Of a stretch of 64,000 nt of DNA, positions 3,113 through 55,858 are shown one piece after another (the first letter of the stretch is position 1; the number at the start of each line of letters is the position of its first letter). The position numbers were made by a program, and so were the translations under genes. Source of the stretch: Halioglobus sp. (GTDB lineage Bacteria; Pseudomonadota; Gammaproteobacteria; Pseudomonadales; Halieaceae); the NCBI GenBank assembly GCA_002699145.1, contig PABK01000047.1:1-64000 (forward strand). Reading direction: 5' to 3'. Below the pieces are notes generated by a model that saw nothing but the letters and a program-made list of their open reading frames with translations, was not told the DNA's origin and did not search any database.

Positions 3113-5784
3113 GCTCCGCCGCCGCGCCTGCCCTGCCGCCAGCGCTGTTCGACAGGAGCGCATTCGCGGCGGAACTGGCGGCCGGTGACGCCATCGGCGC
3201 CTGCCGCGCAGCCATCAGCCGGGCAATCGACTACCAGCACCGGCAGTTCCGCGAAGGCGCCCAGGCCCACGACCTGATCCGGCAGCGCGCCGCGTTCATC
3301 GACGCATTGCTGGGTATGCTCTGGGACCGCCAGGACTGGGGCGACACGCCCATCGCCCTGGTCGCGGTCGGCGGCTACGGGCGCGGCGAGCTGCACCCGC
3401 ATTCCGACATCGACCTGCTGATCCTGCTGGGCGAGGACTGCCCCGGCAACAATGAGGAACTGGCCGGTTTCCTCACCCTGCTGTGGGATATCGGCCTAAA
3501 CATCGGCCACAGCGTGCGCGATGTCGACGAGTGCGTGAAGCAGGCGCGCGACGACATCACCATCCTCACCAACCTGCTGGAATCGCGTACCCTGCGCGGA
3601 CCGGACTCGCTGCTGCAGGCGGTGCGCGAAGGGACGGCGCCGGACAGGATGTGGTCCAGCCAGGCGTTTTTCCAGGCAAAACTGGAGGAACAGCGCCAGC
3701 GGCACAACAAATTCGCCGACACCGAGTACAACCTGGAACCGAACATCAAGGGCTCGCCGGGAGGGTTGCGCGACCTGCAGCTGATAGGCTGGATCGTCGA
3801 GCGCCATTTCGGCGTCACCTCCATGGAGGACATCAACGAGGCCGACTTTCTCAACCGCGACGAGCTGCAGCTGCTCTACCGCGGCAGGGATTTTCTCTGG
3901 CAGGTGCGCTACGCGCTGCACATGATCAGTGACCGCGAGGAAGACCGGCTGCTGTTCGACCACCAGCGCGAACTCGCCGCCCTGTGGGGCCTGGAAGACG
4001 GCGACAAGCTGGCGGTGGAACAGTTCATGCAGGTCTACTACCGCTGGGCGCTGGCCCTGGGGCAGCTCAACGAGGTGCTTATCCAGTATTTCGACCAGGC
4101 CATCCTGCGCCAGGACCTCGCCGACGACATCCGCGTCATCAACGAACGCTTCCAGGTACGCAACGGTTACATCGAGGCGCGCAGCGACCAGGTCTTCCAG
4201 CAGCACCCCCCCGCGCTGCTGGAGATATTCCTCATCTGCGCCAACAACGAGGACATCAACGGCATCGCCGCACCCACCATCCGCCTGATCGGCGACAGCA
4301 GGCAACTGGTGGACGAGGCGTTCCGCGCGGACGACCGCAACAAACAGACCTTCCTGGATATCCTGCGCAGCCCGCACAAGATGACGCGGCAACTGCGGCG
4401 CATGGCGCGCGTCGGCATTCTCAGCGACTACCTGCCCGAATTCGGCCGCATCGTCGGCCAGATGCAACACGATCTCTTTCACGTCTACACGGTGGACGCG
4501 CACACGCTGGAGGTCATCAAGATAACGCGGCGCTTCATGTACCCGGGCTACGAGGATCGCTTCCCGGTGTCCTGCCGGGTGGCGCGCCGGCTGCGCCGGG
4601 TCGAGCTGCTGTACATCGCGGCTCTGTACCACGACATCGGCAAGGGCCGCGGGGGCGATCACTCCGAGCTCGGCGCGGTGGACGCGGAACAGTTCTGTCG
4701 CCGCCACGGTCTGGACGACAGGGATACCGAGCTGGTGGTATGGCTGGTGCGCAATCACCTGCTGATGTCGGCGGTGTCGCAACGCAAGGACATCTCGGAC
4801 CCGGAGATCATCCAGGACTTCGCCGAACACGTCGGCGACGAGGAGCACCTGGACTACCTGTTCACCCTGACGGTGGCGGACATCAACGCCACCAATCCGA
4901 CCCTGTGGAACGCCTGGCGCGGCAGCCTGTTGCGACAGCTGTACACGGAGACGCGGCGCGCACTGCGCAGGGGCCTGGACAACCCCGTGGAGAAAAGCAC
5001 GGTGGTGGGGCAGACGCGCAAGGCGGCTATCGACATTCTCGAGGGGCGCGGTTTCACCCTGGAGGAGCTGGAAGACCTGTGGCGCGAACGGGACGACGAT
5101 TACTTCGTGCGCGAGCGCCCGGAAGACATCGCCTGGCACACGGAGGCCATCGCCGACCACCACGACCGCGACAAGCCCCTGGTGCTGGTGCGCAACAGCG
5201 CCGAGTCCAGCGTCGCCAATACCACGCAGATATTCATCCACGCGCGCAGCCGCCAGCTGTTCTCGCGCACCTGCGCGGCGCTGGAGGCACTGGACCTGAG
5301 CGTGCACGATGCGCGCATCTACGATGCCAACCACGGCATGAGCCTGGACACGTTCTTCGTGCTGGGCTCGGACGGCGAGCCTATCACCGAGGACGTCGCC
5401 CGCCTGCGGCATATCCGCGAATACCTCTCCGACACACTGGCCGGCGAAACGGGCGAGGCGCGCATCGTGGAGCGGCGCACCCCGCGCCGCGTGAGATCCT
5501 TTTCCATCCCCACCGAGACCACCATGGCCACGGACGAGGCGAGAAACCAGACCGTGCTCGAGGTCTCCACCCCGGACCGGCCCGGCCTGCTGGCGCGCCT
5601 GGGGAGGATCTTCACCGATTTCGACCTGGAACTGCAGGCAGCGAAGATCCAGACCCTGGGTGAGCGTGTGGAAGACGTGTTCTTCCTCACCGACGGCGCG
5701 CAACAGGCGATCCGCGACCCGCAGCTGTGCGAACTCATCCAGCGCCGCATCCGCGAGGAGCTGGACGAGCAGGCCGCCGCCTGA
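3109..5784 (+). CDS. glnD: [Protein-PII] uridylyltransferase / uridylyl-removing enzyme
   Basis: GlnD senses glutamine and adds or removes UMP on PII proteins, controlling nitrogen assimilation. The 891-residue product shows the nucleotidyltransferase motif GGYGRGELHPHSDIDLL at about residues 88-104 (D100 and D102 bind metal). An HD hydrolase motif follows (ALYHDIGKGRGGDHSELG, about residue 505). Two C-terminal ACT domains are visible, the second around VLEVSTPDRPGLLARLGRIF near residue 815. An in-frame ATG lies 75 bases further upstream inside map, but the ATG at 3109 overlaps the map stop in ATGA style and gives the usual N-terminus. All catalytic parts are present, so a bifunctional enzyme is expected. 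Confidence 0.97.
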   Translation: MSSAAAPALPPALFDRSAFAAELAAGDAIGACRAAISRAIDYQHRQFREGAQAHDLIRQRAAFIDALLGMLWDRQDWGDTPIALVAVGGYGRGELHPHSDIDLLILLGEDCPGNNEELAGFLTLLWDIGLNIGHSVRDVDECVKQARDDITILTNLLESRTLRGPDSLLQAVREGTAPDRMWSSQAFFQAKLEEQRQRHNKFADTEYNLEPNIKGSPGGLRDLQLIGWIVERHFGVTSMEDINEADFLNRDELQLLYRGRDFLWQVRYALHMISDREEDRLLFDHQRELAALWGLEDGDKLAVEQFMQVYYRWALALGQLNEVLIQYFDQAILRQDLADDIRVINERFQVRNGYIEARSDQVFQQHPPALLEIFLICANNEDINGIAAPTIRLIGDSRQLVDEAFRADDRNKQTFLDILRSPHKMTRQLRRMARVGILSDYLPEFGRIVGQMQHDLFHVYTVDAHTLEVIKITRRFMYPGYEDRFPVSCRVARRLRRVELLYIAALYHDIGKGRGGDHSELGAVDAEQFCRRHGLDDRDTELVVWLVRNHLLMSAVSQRKDISDPEIIQDFAEHVGDEEHLDYLFTLTVADINATNPTLWNAWRGSLLRQLYTETRRALRRGLDNPVEKSTVVGQTRKAAIDILEGRGFTLEELEDLWRERDDDYFVRERPEDIAWHTEAIADHHDRDKPLVLVRNSAESSVANTTQIFIHARSRQLFSRTCAALEALDLSVHDARIYDANHGMSLDTFFVLGSDGEPITEDVARLRHIREYLSDTLAGETGEARIVERRTPRRVRSFSIPTETTMATDEARNQTVLEVSTPDRPGLLARLGRIFTDFDLELQAAKIQTLGERVEDVFFLTDGAQQAIRDPQLCELIQRRIREELDEQAAA

Positions 5785-36599: not shown

Positions 36600-37030
36600 T
36601 GCGCGCCGCGCTGCCGCTATTGCTCGCATCGCTGTTGCTGGCCTGCGGCCAGGGCAGCGAGCCGTCCTCCCCCGCCAGTCTCGCCGCACACCGCGGGCAG
36701 TGGGTCGCCATCAACTACTGGGCGCCCTGGTGCAAACCGTGTATCGAGGAGATTCCCGAACTCAATGCGCTGCACAACGGTCGCGCCGACGTCACCGTGC
36801 TGGGGGTCAATTTTGACGGCACCAGCGGGGCGGAGCTGGCCGAGCAGGAGCGCACACTGGGAGTGGGCTTTCCCACCCTCGCGCAGGACCCGGCGGCGGA
36901 ACTGGGCGTGCCGCGGCCCGTTGTCCTGCCGACCACGTTGCTGGTCGACCCGGACGGCGTGGTCGTCGACAAGCTGGTGGGACCACAGACACTGGAGTCG
37001 CTGGAGGCGGCGATCGACGCGGGGCGGTAA
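36596..37030 (+). CDS. Thioredoxin-like (TlpA/DsbE-type) lipoprotein
   Basis: The 144-residue product has a signal peptide with lipobox LLLAC (Cys17) and then a thioredoxin fold with the redox motif WCKPC (C46, C49). VLPTTLLVDPDG holds the cis-proline. As a lipoprotein it works on the outer face of the inner membrane or in the periplasm, probably reducing disulfides; cytochrome c maturation or redox repair are options. It overlaps the YihY stop (CATGATG gives two in-frame starts). The repeat-rich gap begins directly after its stop codon. Confidence 0.9.
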   Translation: MMRAALPLLLASLLLACGQGSEPSSPASLAAHRGQWVAINYWAPWCKPCIEEIPELNALHNGRADVTVLGVNFDGTSGAELAEQERTLGVGFPTLAQDPAAELGVPRPVVLPTTLLVDPDGVVVDKLVGPQTLESLEAAIDAGR

Positions 37031-37035
37031 GCTGC

Positions 37036-37130
37036 GCCTGGTTCTCTGGCCCGGGGCGCTCACGCTTGCCTGGGGCAGTTCTCTGGCCCGGGGCGCCGTT
37101 TGCCTGGGGCAGTTCTCTGGCCCGGGGCGG
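37036..37130. repeat. Three direct repeats of 32-34 bases
   Basis: GTTCTCTGGCCCGGGGCG, within GCCTGGGGCAGTTCTCTGG, recurs three times, starting near 37036, 37068 and 37102. The first copy is shortened (GCCTGG only). The last merges into the hairpin at 37124-37186. No coding potential is seen. Confidence 0.85.
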
Positions 37131-37186
37131 AAACGCTTTCTGGCCTCGGAAGGCTGAGATACTCGGCCTGAAAGCGTTTCCACCCC
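37124..37186. repeat. Long hairpin with GGAAACGCTTTC arms
   Basis: GGGGCGGAAACGCTTTC (37124-37140) pairs with GAAAGCGTTTCCACCCC (37170-37186), 16 of 17 positions. The loop has about 29 bases. It lacks the GAGGGAGT core of the other elements. It may end the TlpA-like transcript, but no T run follows. Confidence 0.7.
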
Positions 37187-37255
37187 GTGCCTGGAAGCAC
37201 CGTGCTTTCGTTGGAGATGTCTGCAGGGTTCGTTCGCTGGGCTGCGGCCGCGCGC

Positions 37256-37384
37256 TGGGAAAAAGCGGCGCTGCACACTACTGGCGGCCCTCCGGGCTGC
37301 CCTCGGTCGGTCGCGAGCCGCGTGGGGATGCGTCTCGCTCCACTCCCTCGGCGCCAGCGAAGTGTTCCGCGCCGCTTTTTCCCA
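37256..37384 (-). repeat. Dispersed hairpin element A (long core, reversed)
   Basis: Outer arms TGGGAAAAAGCGGCGC (37256-37271) and its exact complement (37369-37384) are followed inside by imperfectly paired ACACT..CTGGCG. The core at 37299-37352, read on the minus strand, is GCCGAGGGAGTGGAGCGAG, then AC, a 15-base spacer and GGCTCGCGACCGACCGAGG. The core matches elements B and C closely, while the arms match neither. Confidence 0.85.
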
Positions 37385-37494
37385 CCCCGCAGCCTCTGGT
37401 GGAGGGGCTGGTGGGGCTTATGGGGGTCTGCGGGTGAGCTTCGTGTTTACCTTGTCCTGGTGTGTTGCGGGGGGAGGTCGTGAACTATGCTTTC

Positions 37495-37589
37495 CTGGAC
37501 TGCTGGACTGCTGGACTGCTGGACTGCTGGACTGCTGGACTGCTGGACTGCTGGACTGCTGGACTGCTGGACTGCTGGACTGCTGGACT
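37495..37589. repeat. Octanucleotide tandem array, unit CTGGACTG
   Basis: The 8-base unit repeats without error for 95 bases, about 11.9 copies. An 8-base period is not a multiple of three, so it shifts frame each unit. It lies outside any gene, so classic phase variation of a coding frame is not supported. It should be prone to length change by slippage. Confidence 0.95.
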
Positions 37590-37628
37590 TCCCGACCGCG
37601 TTATTTCGCAGCAGCACGCTTACCTGAA

Positions 37629-37728
37629 GGCCACCCCGACCCCCGCTGAATTCTCGAAGCACCACTCCACCCACATACCGGCCACACCGACTCCCACTGA
37701 ATTCTCGAACGACCACTCCACCCACAAC
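37629..37728. repeat. 49-base tandem duplication
   Basis: Two adjacent copies (37629-37677 and 37680-37728) share GGCCAC.CCGAC.CCC.CTGAA, TTCTCGAA and ACCACTCCACCCACA, with a handful of substitutions and a period of 51 bases. No function is seen. Confidence 0.8.
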
Positions 37729-37764
37729 CAACCACACCTGCCGCTTCCCGCTGCAAGGCGGGCG

Positions 37765-37891
37765 GGGGGCTGTGGCGGGGCTCGCAAACCAGCCGCCGAG
37801 GGAGTGGAGCGAGACGCGGCTCCATGCGGCTCGCGACCGACCGAGGGCACCGCGGAGCGGCGAGCTGGTAAGAGCCCCGCCACAGTCCCCC
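37765..37891 (+). repeat. Dispersed hairpin element B (long core)
   Basis: GGGGGCTGTGGCGGGGCTC (37765-37783) pairs with 37872-37891 apart from one bulged base, and the pairing continues inward imperfectly (ACCAGC/AGCTGGT, GCC/GGC). The core at 37795-37850 begins GCCGAGGGAGTGGAGCGAGA and ends GGCTCGCGACCGACCGAGGG. An inner small stem (GCGAG with CTCGC) is possible in the core. Arms are unrelated to those of A, C or D. Confidence 0.85.
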
Positions 37892-37954
37892 GACCGCCGG
37901 TGGCGTAGCCGCCACACCCCGCAGATGTTGGATAGTGGCGTCGAAACGACAGGA

Positions 37955-38032
37955 GAACCTCCCGCGGGGGAAGTGTACCGGGGAGGGAGTCTGCTTTTCG
38001 ACCGACCGGGACACTTCCCCCGCGGGAGGTTC
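37955..38032 (+). repeat. Dispersed hairpin element D (short core, copy 2 of the type at base 1)
   Basis: The arms are 27 bases (37955-37981 and 38006-38032) with one mismatch, starting GAACCTCCCGCGGGGG. The 24-base loop (37982-38005) is identical to that at bases 19-42. The downstream homology with copy 1 runs on for about 50 bases. The loop ends (GAGGGAGT and GACCGACCG across the arm) are shared with the long-core elements. Confidence 0.85.
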
Positions 38033-38101
38033 GGTAAGGCCCAAGAACGACCCCAAAAAACCGCCCCTCGTGGAAGGTTCGGTTAGGCCCAAGAACGTCC
38101 C
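38025..38101 (+). repeat. Two copies of a 30-base repeat also present near base 62
   Basis: GGAGGTTCGGTAAGGCCCAA..AACGACCCC (38025-38054) and GGAAGGTTCGGTTAGGCCCA..GAACGTCCC (38072-38101) are near-identical. A third copy lies at about 62-91 beside hairpin copy 1. The repeat therefore travels with the short-core element. Confidence 0.75.
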
Positions 38102-38141
38102 AGCGGAAGAAACCGATCCCGCACAGTTCCCCGCCAAGGAC

Positions 38142-38170
38142 AAAAAAAACGCCGGCACAGGGCCGGCGTC
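38142..38170 (-). terminator. Rho-independent terminator of the pnt operon
   Basis: On the minus strand ACGCCGGC pairs with GCCGGCGT over a five-base loop, followed by eight T residues. It begins about 20 bases after the pntB stop codon. Confidence 0.9.
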
Positions 38171-38190
38171 TGTGTGTCGATAGTGCGGAA

Positions 38191-39543
38191 TCAGCCGCTG
38201 AACTCGCGCACCAGGCCGCCGATGGACTCTTTCGCGTCGCCGAACAACATGCGCGTATTCTCCTTGTAGAACAGCGGGTTCTCGATGCCGGCAAAGCCCG
38301 ACGCCATGGAGCGCTTGAGCACGAACACCGTGCGCGCGCTGTCCACGTTGATCACCGGCATGCCGTAGATCGGCGAGGATTCCACCTCGCGCGCGGCCGG
38401 GTTGACCACGTCGTTGGCGCCGATGACGATGGCCACGTCCACGGTTTCCATGCGCGGGTTGATGTCGTCCATCTCCAGCAACTGGTCGTAGGGCACGTCC
38501 GCTTCCGCCAGCAGCACGTTCATGTGCCCCGGCATCCGGCCCGCCACCGGGTGAATGCCGAAGTTCACTTCCGCGCCGTTCGCTTCCATCAGCTCCGTCA
38601 GTTCCTTCACCACGTGCTGCGCCTGGGCCACGGCCATGCCGTAACCCGGGATGATGGCGACGCTGCTGGCCGCTTCCAGCACGTAGTAGGCGTCCTCGAC
38701 GGAGATCGGCTTGATCTCGCCCTCCACCTCGGTGGCCTCCGTCTTGCCCGAGCCGAAGCCGGAGAACAGTACATTGGTGAGGGAGCGGTTCATGGCCTTG
38801 CACATGATCTGCGTAAGGATGATGCCCGCGGAGCCGACCAGGGAGCCGGCGACGATGAGGATGTTGTTGTCCACCGCGAAGCCCGCGGCACAGGCCGCCA
38901 GGCCGGAGTAGGAGTTGAGCAGGGAAATCACCACCGGCATGTCGGCGCCGCCGATGGGGATGACCGCCATGATGCCGAACACCAGCGACAGGCCGATGAC
39001 CAGGTACAGCCACAGGGTGTTGTCCGGGTTGATGCAGAACATCACCGCGCTGGCCAGGATGCCGGCGACGATCGCGCCGTTGACCAGCTGCTGCGCACTG
39101 AACAGCACCGGGGCGGAAGTGATTTTCTCGCTCAGTTTGCCGTAGGCCACCAATGAGCCGGTGAACGTCAGGCCGCCGATGAGGATGGACAGCACGATGG
39201 TCACCAGGGTGAAGGTGGACGACCCCGGCGCCAGCGCGGCGGCGCCGACCAGCAGGCTGGCCATGCCGCCGAAGCCGTTGAACAGCGCCACCATTTCCGG
39301 CATGGAGGTCATCTGCACCATGCGCGCGGCGGCCGCGCCGATGGCGCCGCCCAGGGCGAAGCCGATCAGGATCCAGGTGTAGTCGATACCCTGTGACAGC
39401 AGCGCCGCGACAACCGCGACCAGCATGCCCAGGGAGGAGATGAAGTTGCCGCGGCGTGCCGTGGCGGGAGAGCCGAGCTGCTTGAGGCCGAAGATGAACA
39501 GTACGGCGGCAGCGACATAGGCAAATTGAATAGCGTTATCCAT
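38191..39543 (-). CDS. pntB: NAD(P)+ transhydrogenase subunit beta
   Basis: PntB is the membrane and NADP-binding subunit of the proton-translocating transhydrogenase, which makes NADPH from NADH using the proton gradient. The 450-residue product has eight or so transmembrane helices in residues 1-270 and a cytoplasmic domain III. The latter has GYGMAVAQAQHVVKEL (NADP site), HPVAGRMPGHMNVLLAEA, DDINPRMETVDVAIVIGAND and KRSMASGFAGIENPLFY. Length is standard. It follows pntA part 2 by six bases and ends at a good terminator. Confidence 0.97.
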   Translation of the reverse strand: MDNAIQFAYVAAAVLFIFGLKQLGSPATARRGNFISSLGMLVAVVAALLSQGIDYTWILIGFALGGAIGAAAARMVQMTSMPEMVALFNGFGGMASLLVGAAALAPGSSTFTLVTIVLSILIGGLTFTGSLVAYGKLSEKITSAPVLFSAQQLVNGAIVAGILASAVMFCINPDNTLWLYLVIGLSLVFGIMAVIPIGGADMPVVISLLNSYSGLAACAAGFAVDNNILIVAGSLVGSAGIILTQIMCKAMNRSLTNVLFSGFGSGKTEATEVEGEIKPISVEDAYYVLEAASSVAIIPGYGMAVAQAQHVVKELTELMEANGAEVNFGIHPVAGRMPGHMNVLLAEADVPYDQLLEMDDINPRMETVDVAIVIGANDVVNPAAREVESSPIYGMPVINVDSARTVFVLKRSMASGFAGIENPLFYKENTRMLFGDAKESIGGLVREFSG

Positions 39544-55718: not shown

Positions 55719-55858
55719 GGGTCCGTGCTGTGCGGGCCCCTTGCGGACGCTTTGGGCCGCGCCGAGGGAGTGGAGCGAGACCGCAGGGCTCGCGACCGAC
55801 CGAGGGCAGCCCGGAGGGCCGCGGGTCGCGGAGCAAGGGGCCTGCACAGCACGGACCC
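55719..55858 (+). repeat. Dispersed hairpin element C (long core)
   Basis: GGGTCCGTGCTGTGC plus GGGCCCCTTGC (55719-55744) pairs with 55833-55858 at all but one of 26 positions. The core at 55761-55810 reads GCCGAGGGAGTGGAGCGAGA, then a short spacer and GGCTCGCGACCGACCGAGGG, nearly identical to elements A and B. The arms are unrelated to theirs. A third copy of the right-arm end occurs at 55934-55947. Confidence 0.87.

Follow-up and report, generated by a model that had tools for sequence, protein, structure and literature searches.

A 64,000-nt window of a Halioglobus genome carries members of a family of hairpin repeats that is real, strongly covarying, and apparently undescribed so far. The members share a folded core whose pairs covary, are present in multiple copies, fall into subfamilies, occur in inverted pairs, and are spread patchily across two bacterial classes, and one of the sites occupied in this genome is empty at the orthologous position in relatives. 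The family is REPIN-like in its behavior but is not a REPIN. In the likeliest reading, to which we give about an even chance, these are non-autonomous, REPIN-like interspersed repeats whose core a trans-acting protein would recognize in its folded, single-stranded form. We infer that the fold would be recognized as single-stranded DNA, that copies would spread by a transposition-like copying process, and that the enzyme responsible would be supplied in trans.

A first-pass annotation had placed five independent, dispersed hairpins in the window, A, B, C, D, and copy 1. All five lie at those coordinates (Table 1), but their independence did not hold up: A, B, and D belong to a single composite repeat, stretches of which recur elsewhere in the genome. 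Copy 1 is likewise not a separate element but a truncated copy of D, its positions 1–69 corresponding to bases 10–78 of D at 99% identity at the point where the window opens with the contig's first base. The core common to A, B, and C is ~66–73 nt long, and only a reduced core is present in D and copy 1. Hairpin E recurs in other contigs of the same genome, with copies in loci L019 and L020. The left end of the composite also holds 34-bp tandem units (GTTCTCTGGCCCGGGGCG...) at 37041–37129, and the 8-bp array CTGGACTG of the spacer, perfect in the window, is much shorter in the versions at L018 and L021. The linker motif is reversed in genome G012 and has a related form, GTAGTGGATAGTG, in G101, as judged by eye.

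Table 1. Hairpins and associated repeats in the window (positions counted from its first base)
Feature	Position	Strand	Description
Copy 1 (another D, truncated at the contig start)	1..69	+	C6:1-69, 99%
Composite repeat	37040..38102		~1.06 kb; tandem units, hairpin E, A (-), spacer, B (+), linker, D (+), tail; stretches recur in own genome
Hairpin E, left end of composite	37119..37191		arms GGAAACGCTTTCTGGCC / GGCCTGAAAGCGTTTCC; palindrome, 74% match to own reverse
Hairpin A	37256..37384	-	core 37283-37355 by covariance model; near-identical copies in own genome
A-B spacer	37385..37764		8-bp array CTGGACTG x11.9 at 37495-37589; 51-bp repeat x2.2 at 37629-37738
Hairpin B	37765..37891	+	core 37792-37864 by covariance model; copies at C12 (94%) and C49 (91%)
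Linker motif between B and D	37927..37937	+	GTTGGATAGTG
Hairpin D	37955..38032	+	reduced core GAGGGAGTC..TCGACCGAC within 25-bp arms; copies in own genome
Hairpin C, single-hairpin subfamily	55719..55858	+	core 55758-55823 by covariance model; five further copies, compensating arms

When the whole genome (5.2 Mb in 61 contigs) was searched, hairpin A returned 38 matches, the best 20 of which are 97–100% identical over the parts present. At least 14 of the 38 reach to within two bases of a contig end, which suggests why the assembly breaks there. Hairpin D returned 13 matches at 96–100% and 8 at 82–86%. Stretches of the composite are found on contigs C56 (corresponding to 37040–37336, 95%), C49 (37559–38102, 88%), and C12 (37690–38095, 88%); no single other copy in this genome spans its full length in one contig match, and copies read side by side show that A (-), the array-bearing spacer, B (+), the linker, and D (+) recur together. 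An apparent chimera of the A and B hairpins, possibly a misassembly, lies at a contig end (L023 1–110, the start of G000:C33). Specifically for the core, a covariance model found 24 matches in this genome, 42 in G012, and 34 in G023. The arms had been described as unrelated to one another. That is true between A, B, C, and D but not within subfamilies, where they can be nearly identical, as in the best A matches.

The core folds into a helix in which 2-bp pairs separate three tandem GA/GA steps; to this are added a variable hairpin (P2) and a side hairpin (P3) with a GGA loop. From the outer stem inward, the left strand of the helix, CC-GA-GG-GA-GuG-GA-GCGAG, faces the right strand, CTCGC-GA-CC-GA-CC-GA-GG, and the apex carries the variable hairpin over an A-G mismatch; the side hairpin is CCCC-GGA-GGGG. 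In a first alignment of 20 distinct cores from four genomes, scored against a structure written by hand with thermodynamic folds as a guide, 93.0% of cells are paired and both sides have changed in 39 cells, compared with 13.0 after shuffling; slid versions of the structure collapse. Further pair types in that alignment do not exceed the shuffled level (13 vs. 12.6, with 279 of 500 shuffles as high). A larger alignment comprises 91 matches (84 distinct) from 61 hand-chosen sources; as it was fitted to the covariance model, its counts lean toward the modeled structure, and as its rows are related copies, its cells are not independent events. Read with those limits, 90.6% of its 1815 cells are paired, with 281 both-side changes against 67.4 in shuffled alignments, double changes in 20 of 22 pairs against 13.5, 61 further pair types against 46.5, and a covariation score of 0.399 against 0.131, slid controls on the same alignment giving 0.03–0.09. 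The conserved core with compensating stems reported by the first-pass annotation is upheld by the covariance model, by the covariation counts, and by homologs in another class.

The non-Watson–Crick elements of the core are also retained. GA/GA is kept at the three sites in 75, 58, and 51 of the 84 distinct copies, the A-G mismatch above P2 in 83, and the GGA loop of P3 in 74. At the middle site, both strands have switched jointly to GC/AA in 11 of the 84 copies, while half-changed forms number two (GC/GA) and one (GA/AA) and the one-sided AA/GA is found in seven; the 11 GC/AA copies may be related, in which case fewer independent events underlie them. The third site is looser, with GG/TA in six copies, GC/AA in five, and pairs such as TT/AG in three.

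The arms enclosing the core are strongly complementary. Hairpin A scores 21.5, and B and C account for the values 22.0 and 23.5, without assignment of one to the other; the 99% point of shuffled sequences is 11 and their maximum 12.5. Scores of at least 14, above that shuffled maximum, were obtained for 27 of 47 non-redundant elements with enough flanking sequence, and 16 of the remaining 20 are Chitinibacteraceae copies with short outer stems only. The C subfamily is the most informative on compensation. Among its six copies in this genome the arms have diverged strongly around a nearly identical core, and all 148 lettered cells are nevertheless paired, and in 19 of the 26 pairs both partners have changed, a count reached by none of 500 shuffles; the structure columns of the C- and D-type arm alignments were written after the window's own pairing had been seen. 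The D arms compensate more weakly (97.0% of 200 cells paired; 7 of 25 pairs double-changed). Variable stems that compensate, as originally annotated, are supported by the C subfamily. The same annotation had regarded arms conserved in sequence as an argument against such a family; these occur in part, among the A and D copies, and the C subfamily does the opposite, its arms changing and compensating. By manual count, an A directly precedes the 5′ foot of the hairpin in 26 of 37 arm-bearing elements and a G directly follows the 3′ foot in 28; with these bases the GA pattern would continue past the arms. GATGC lies 5′ of the foot in 7 of the 37, against 0.024 per random 20-mer in an unseeded control, which is suggestive only.

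Imperfect cells may carry information on what kind of strand is folded. Read on the core strand, those in the arms are G-U in 22 cases and A-C in 10 (p 0.05); all five wobble cells of the C arms are G-U and none A-C, and by manual count the D arms have three of each. Within the core, G-U and A-C number 50 and 36. These counts bear on a mutational origin of the arms, in which template switching within a quasi-palindrome would copy one arm onto the other and complementarity would reflect mutation, not selection. Such a process could produce C arms that are fully complementary despite heavy divergence, and the arm sequence of the window's C recurs nearby, 8 of its 11-mers being found in its own flanks. 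However, it leaves the conserved core and the joint non-Watson–Crick changes unexplained, changes outside Watson–Crick pairs being hard to explain by palindrome-copying mutation, and an excess of G-U over A-C in the arms is unexpected if the two strands are equivalent. We consider template switching improbable. Copying of arms from local flanks in particular was rejected, the extra local copy being seen in only one of six C copies; one off-diagonal comparison shared four 11-mers, a hint of background.

Genomic placement was assessed at 130 cores flanked on either side by genes that a heuristic method had called. All copies had been annotated as intergenic; at 107 of the 130 no ORF runs through the core, and at the other 23, the window's C (in L066) included, an ORF does run through, which we take to be spurious. 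With such placements excluded and the same heuristic gene caller, the neighboring genes are convergent in 32 and divergent in 10 of 73 cases in a first set, for which 71 Chitinibacteraceae and 30 gammaproteobacterial loci were the source, and convergent in 13 and divergent in 8 of 34 cases in a second set. An excess of convergent neighbors speaks for the main rival reading, in which the family is an RNA motif that functions in the 3′ regions of mRNAs. The element would be cotranscribed with neighboring genes, its folded core, a GA-rich helix plus the GGA-loop hairpin, would protect or terminate transcripts or bind a protein, and copies would spread because they are neutral or useful to the carrier. 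Structured RNAs frequently contain tandem GA steps and GGA loops, and the core carries both; the G-U excess in the arms, which extends to every wobble cell of the C arms, points the same way. In DNA too, however, G-T is more stable than A-C, which weakens that excess as an argument; moreover, G-U and A-C are closer in number within the core and equal in the D arms, and the inverted pairs leave one core misoriented for any single transcript. We hold an RNA function of this kind to be unlikely, though far from negligible. The first-pass annotation had offered a structured RNA or a hairpin-recognized mobile element; its structural reading is supported, and the molecule that matters may be either RNA or single-stranded DNA.

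The site occupied by C could be compared across relatives. Eight relatives with a short gap there (G016, G015, G002, G004, G010, G017, G001, and G007) were read; none has a core at the orthologous site, where the gap is ~100–270 bp as against ~415 bp. In G014 the site holds a 1.1-kb stretch that seemingly contains a gene, and in G012 it is represented by two contigs, each ending in a core-bearing element of that genome's own subfamily, so that G012 apparently has a core pair of its own there. The empty site fits an insertion of C without proving it, and deletion or divergence may also account for it. Other long palindromes with different loops were seen by eye at this position in G016 (L297) and G002 (L299), and the gap may collect palindromic elements. 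With regard to the target-site duplication expected of a MITE of a DDE transposon, direct repeats flanking the 37 arm-bearing elements are near the null of an unseeded control, the one example of 6 bp being at L095.

The core is patchy in its distribution and present in both Gammaproteobacteria and Betaproteobacteria (Chitinibacteraceae). It was detected in 16 of 100 genomes of the family sample (probably Halieaceae), 11 of 293 order genomes, and 2 of 398 phylum genomes, the source genome being counted in each; for these samples of more than 40 genomes stricter filters applied, by which weak matches are lost. A scan of named genomes, for which loci were fetched by a pattern fixed in the 3′ half of the core alone, yielded at least 101 stretches. 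At least 71 of these are from Chitinibacteraceae (Silvimonas, Formivibrio, Chitinolyticbacter, Deefgea, Chitinibacter, Andreprevotia, and Chitiniphilus), and at least 30 are gammaproteobacterial, including Mangrovimicrobium sediminis (Halieaceae in NCBI), Seongchinamella unica, a Haliea MAG, and other MAGs.

Inverted intergenic doublets, a hallmark of REP and REPIN elements, are a recurrent arrangement. By manual count among the matches listed, 28 of the 34 core matches in G023 form 14 minus/plus pairs spaced 186–692 bp start to start, and an inverted pair is found in at least 12 of the 16 family carriers. The core pairs of G101 and G067 are, by eye, bordered by related linker motifs and further hairpins. 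In the Chitinibacteraceae a single core was detected at 59 of 71 sampled loci, where weaker partners may be missed. Silvimonas contributes 32 copies in 29 loci, and its unit, as judged by eye, consists of a hexanucleotide array, the core, a pyrimidine-rich hairpin, and two small hairpins with compensating variants, ending near TAACA. At L174 a repeat, CGTCATTCCCGCGGAGGCGGGAATCCAG, lies between two inverted cores (5563–5590) and may resemble dRS3 or a CGTC-tagged repeat. The second hairpin adjoining the core, at L174 5790–5832 and other Chitinibacteraceae loci (TTTCTTT..CTTTCTTTG..CAAAGAAAG), has a pyrimidine–pyrimidine–purine layout like that of an intrastrand triplex. A triplex reading of this hairpin was considered but gained no clear support: of 80 cores, 17 lack the tract, and the 19 distinct triples divide into 8 that better fit a mirror repeat, 8 that better fit a direct repeat, and 3 that are tied; the eight mirror-fitting triples are asymmetric tracts, and the asymmetric tract of L256 favors the direct repeat. 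The pyrimidine–pyrimidine–purine layout is the likeness to the TM_ECO intrastrand triplex motifs, which in the available text of PMC4666352 are a G/C-rich purine motif, whereas the Chitinibacteraceae tract, which belongs to a composite, is rich in T and C.

The annotation had offered no named family that fits, and Rfam searches agree. At the gathering threshold, Rfam 15 returned for the whole window only the t44 RNA (RF00127; 2041–2134, minus strand, 58.3 bits against a threshold of 44). Permissive scans of 36900–38300 and of L174 5500–6100 gave no family at its gathering score, C being covered by the gathering scan. The top subthreshold matches are microRNA models, to D (mir-5316, 28.9 bits where 70 are needed, E 0.00059) and also to E. 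The elements resemble Rfam families in size and in being structured and covarying but lie below every gathering score. Among phages and plasmids, B is unmatched at E 1e-5, and viral contigs hold no exact match to the core pattern. The available text of PMC3116915, PMC6006769, PMC3733652, PMC12306157, and PMC4666352 contains no description of the core, and a search of the accessible open-access literature by names and sequence strings found no description of the family among the matches listed; one 13-mer string recurs in Bifidobacterium papers.

The closest comparison is with REPINs and BIMEs, the REP doublets moved by RAYT (TnpAREP). As far as the available text of PMC3116915 and PMC6006769 goes, these are likewise intergenic and multicopy, form inverted doublets around a spacer, and have compensating hairpins, all of which would suit a place for the present repeats among the known REP/REPIN superfamilies, whose transposases are the RAYTs. 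In contrast to a REP of 21–65 nt (per the part of PMC6006769 available), however, the unit here is ~130 bp, with a large branched core bearing GA/GA steps, and it shows neither the GT[AG]G foot tag nor an adjoining RAYT. Specifically, 4 of 37 elements have GT[AG]G no more than 6 nt from the hairpin foot, where ~2 are expected (null 0.059 per 12-mer, unseeded), and the CGTC tag is at the 5′ foot of none of the 37. The GTAG- and CGTC-tagged repeats are, in the available text of PMC3733652, superfamilies of palindromic repeats that often form dimers in opposite orientation, as here, but their tags are not enriched in our elements and the core is absent from the descriptions in that text. A dedicated transposase is reportedly absent for the CGTC-tagged repeats (PMC3733652, same text).

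A search for a mobilizing enzyme identified none. PF01797 proteins are encoded in 15 of 23 core-bearing genomes. Within the family sample, RAYT-type (PF01797) genes are more common in carriers: 11 of the 16 genomes with a core and 22 of the 84 without one have such a gene (Fisher p 0.0024), as do all six in which 10 or more cores were counted (Fisher p 0.0009, in a grouping made after the data had been seen), both p values being uncorrected for phylogeny or genome size. PF01797 gave no hit in five of the 16 carriers. The 20 PF01797 loci searched, with flanks of up to 1.5 kb and some of them cut by contig ends, contain no core match (E up to 10), and on these loci RAYT was rejected as a cis-linked mobilizer. 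One BLAST match between the PF01797 loci and an L043 flank lies away from the L043 cores, and in G012 a PF01797 gene and a core pair share a contig at a distance of ~8 kb. RAYT-type proteins picked by a motif heuristic were compared by eye for 17 loci from carriers of the core and 18 from non-carriers, one of which gave nothing; those of carriers are apparently of more than one type, and the single PF01797 protein of the source genome looks unlike those of G012, G101, or G067. Because no core lies within ~1.5 kb of PF01797 genes, five carriers are without a hit, and the carriers' proteins are seemingly of more than one type, we call the family REPIN-like and not REPIN. With neither tag enriched and no core beside RAYT genes, outright membership in the REP/REPIN superfamilies seems to us very improbable, even with RAYT commoner in carriers. 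Among 1425 ORFs in the fetched loci, the top 25 clusters of which were judged by eye from their first residues, no recurrent neighbor gene was recognizable as a mobilizer, and no autonomous element was recognized among the genes of those loci.

Collectively, these observations are consistent with a model in which non-autonomous repeats are mobilized in trans. A trans-acting protein would read the conserved core, with its three GA/GA steps, P2, and P3 with its GGA loop, in the form of a folded single strand. In this proposal the arms would need only to pair and would therefore drift with compensating changes, and the inverted arrangement of core pairs around a spacer would allow either strand to present one correctly oriented core. 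A broader reading, which is possible but which we regard as doubtful, is that the repeats represent a so far undescribed superfamily of mobile single-strand structures common to Gamma- and Betaproteobacteria, the identity of which would reside in a three-dimensional core of alternating tandem GA steps and a GGA-loop hairpin read by a candidate enzyme, with arms that may be any palindrome.

If the core is what a mobilizing enzyme or an RNA-binding protein reads, the family would add one more class of interspersed palindromic repeat to those tagged by GTAG and CGTC, and the structure recognized would be far more intricate than theirs. Furthermore, if the core is such a recognition structure, these genomes hold a natural experiment: each may contain dozens of copies in which the core stays constant and the stems vary freely, and comparing them reveals which bases are important.
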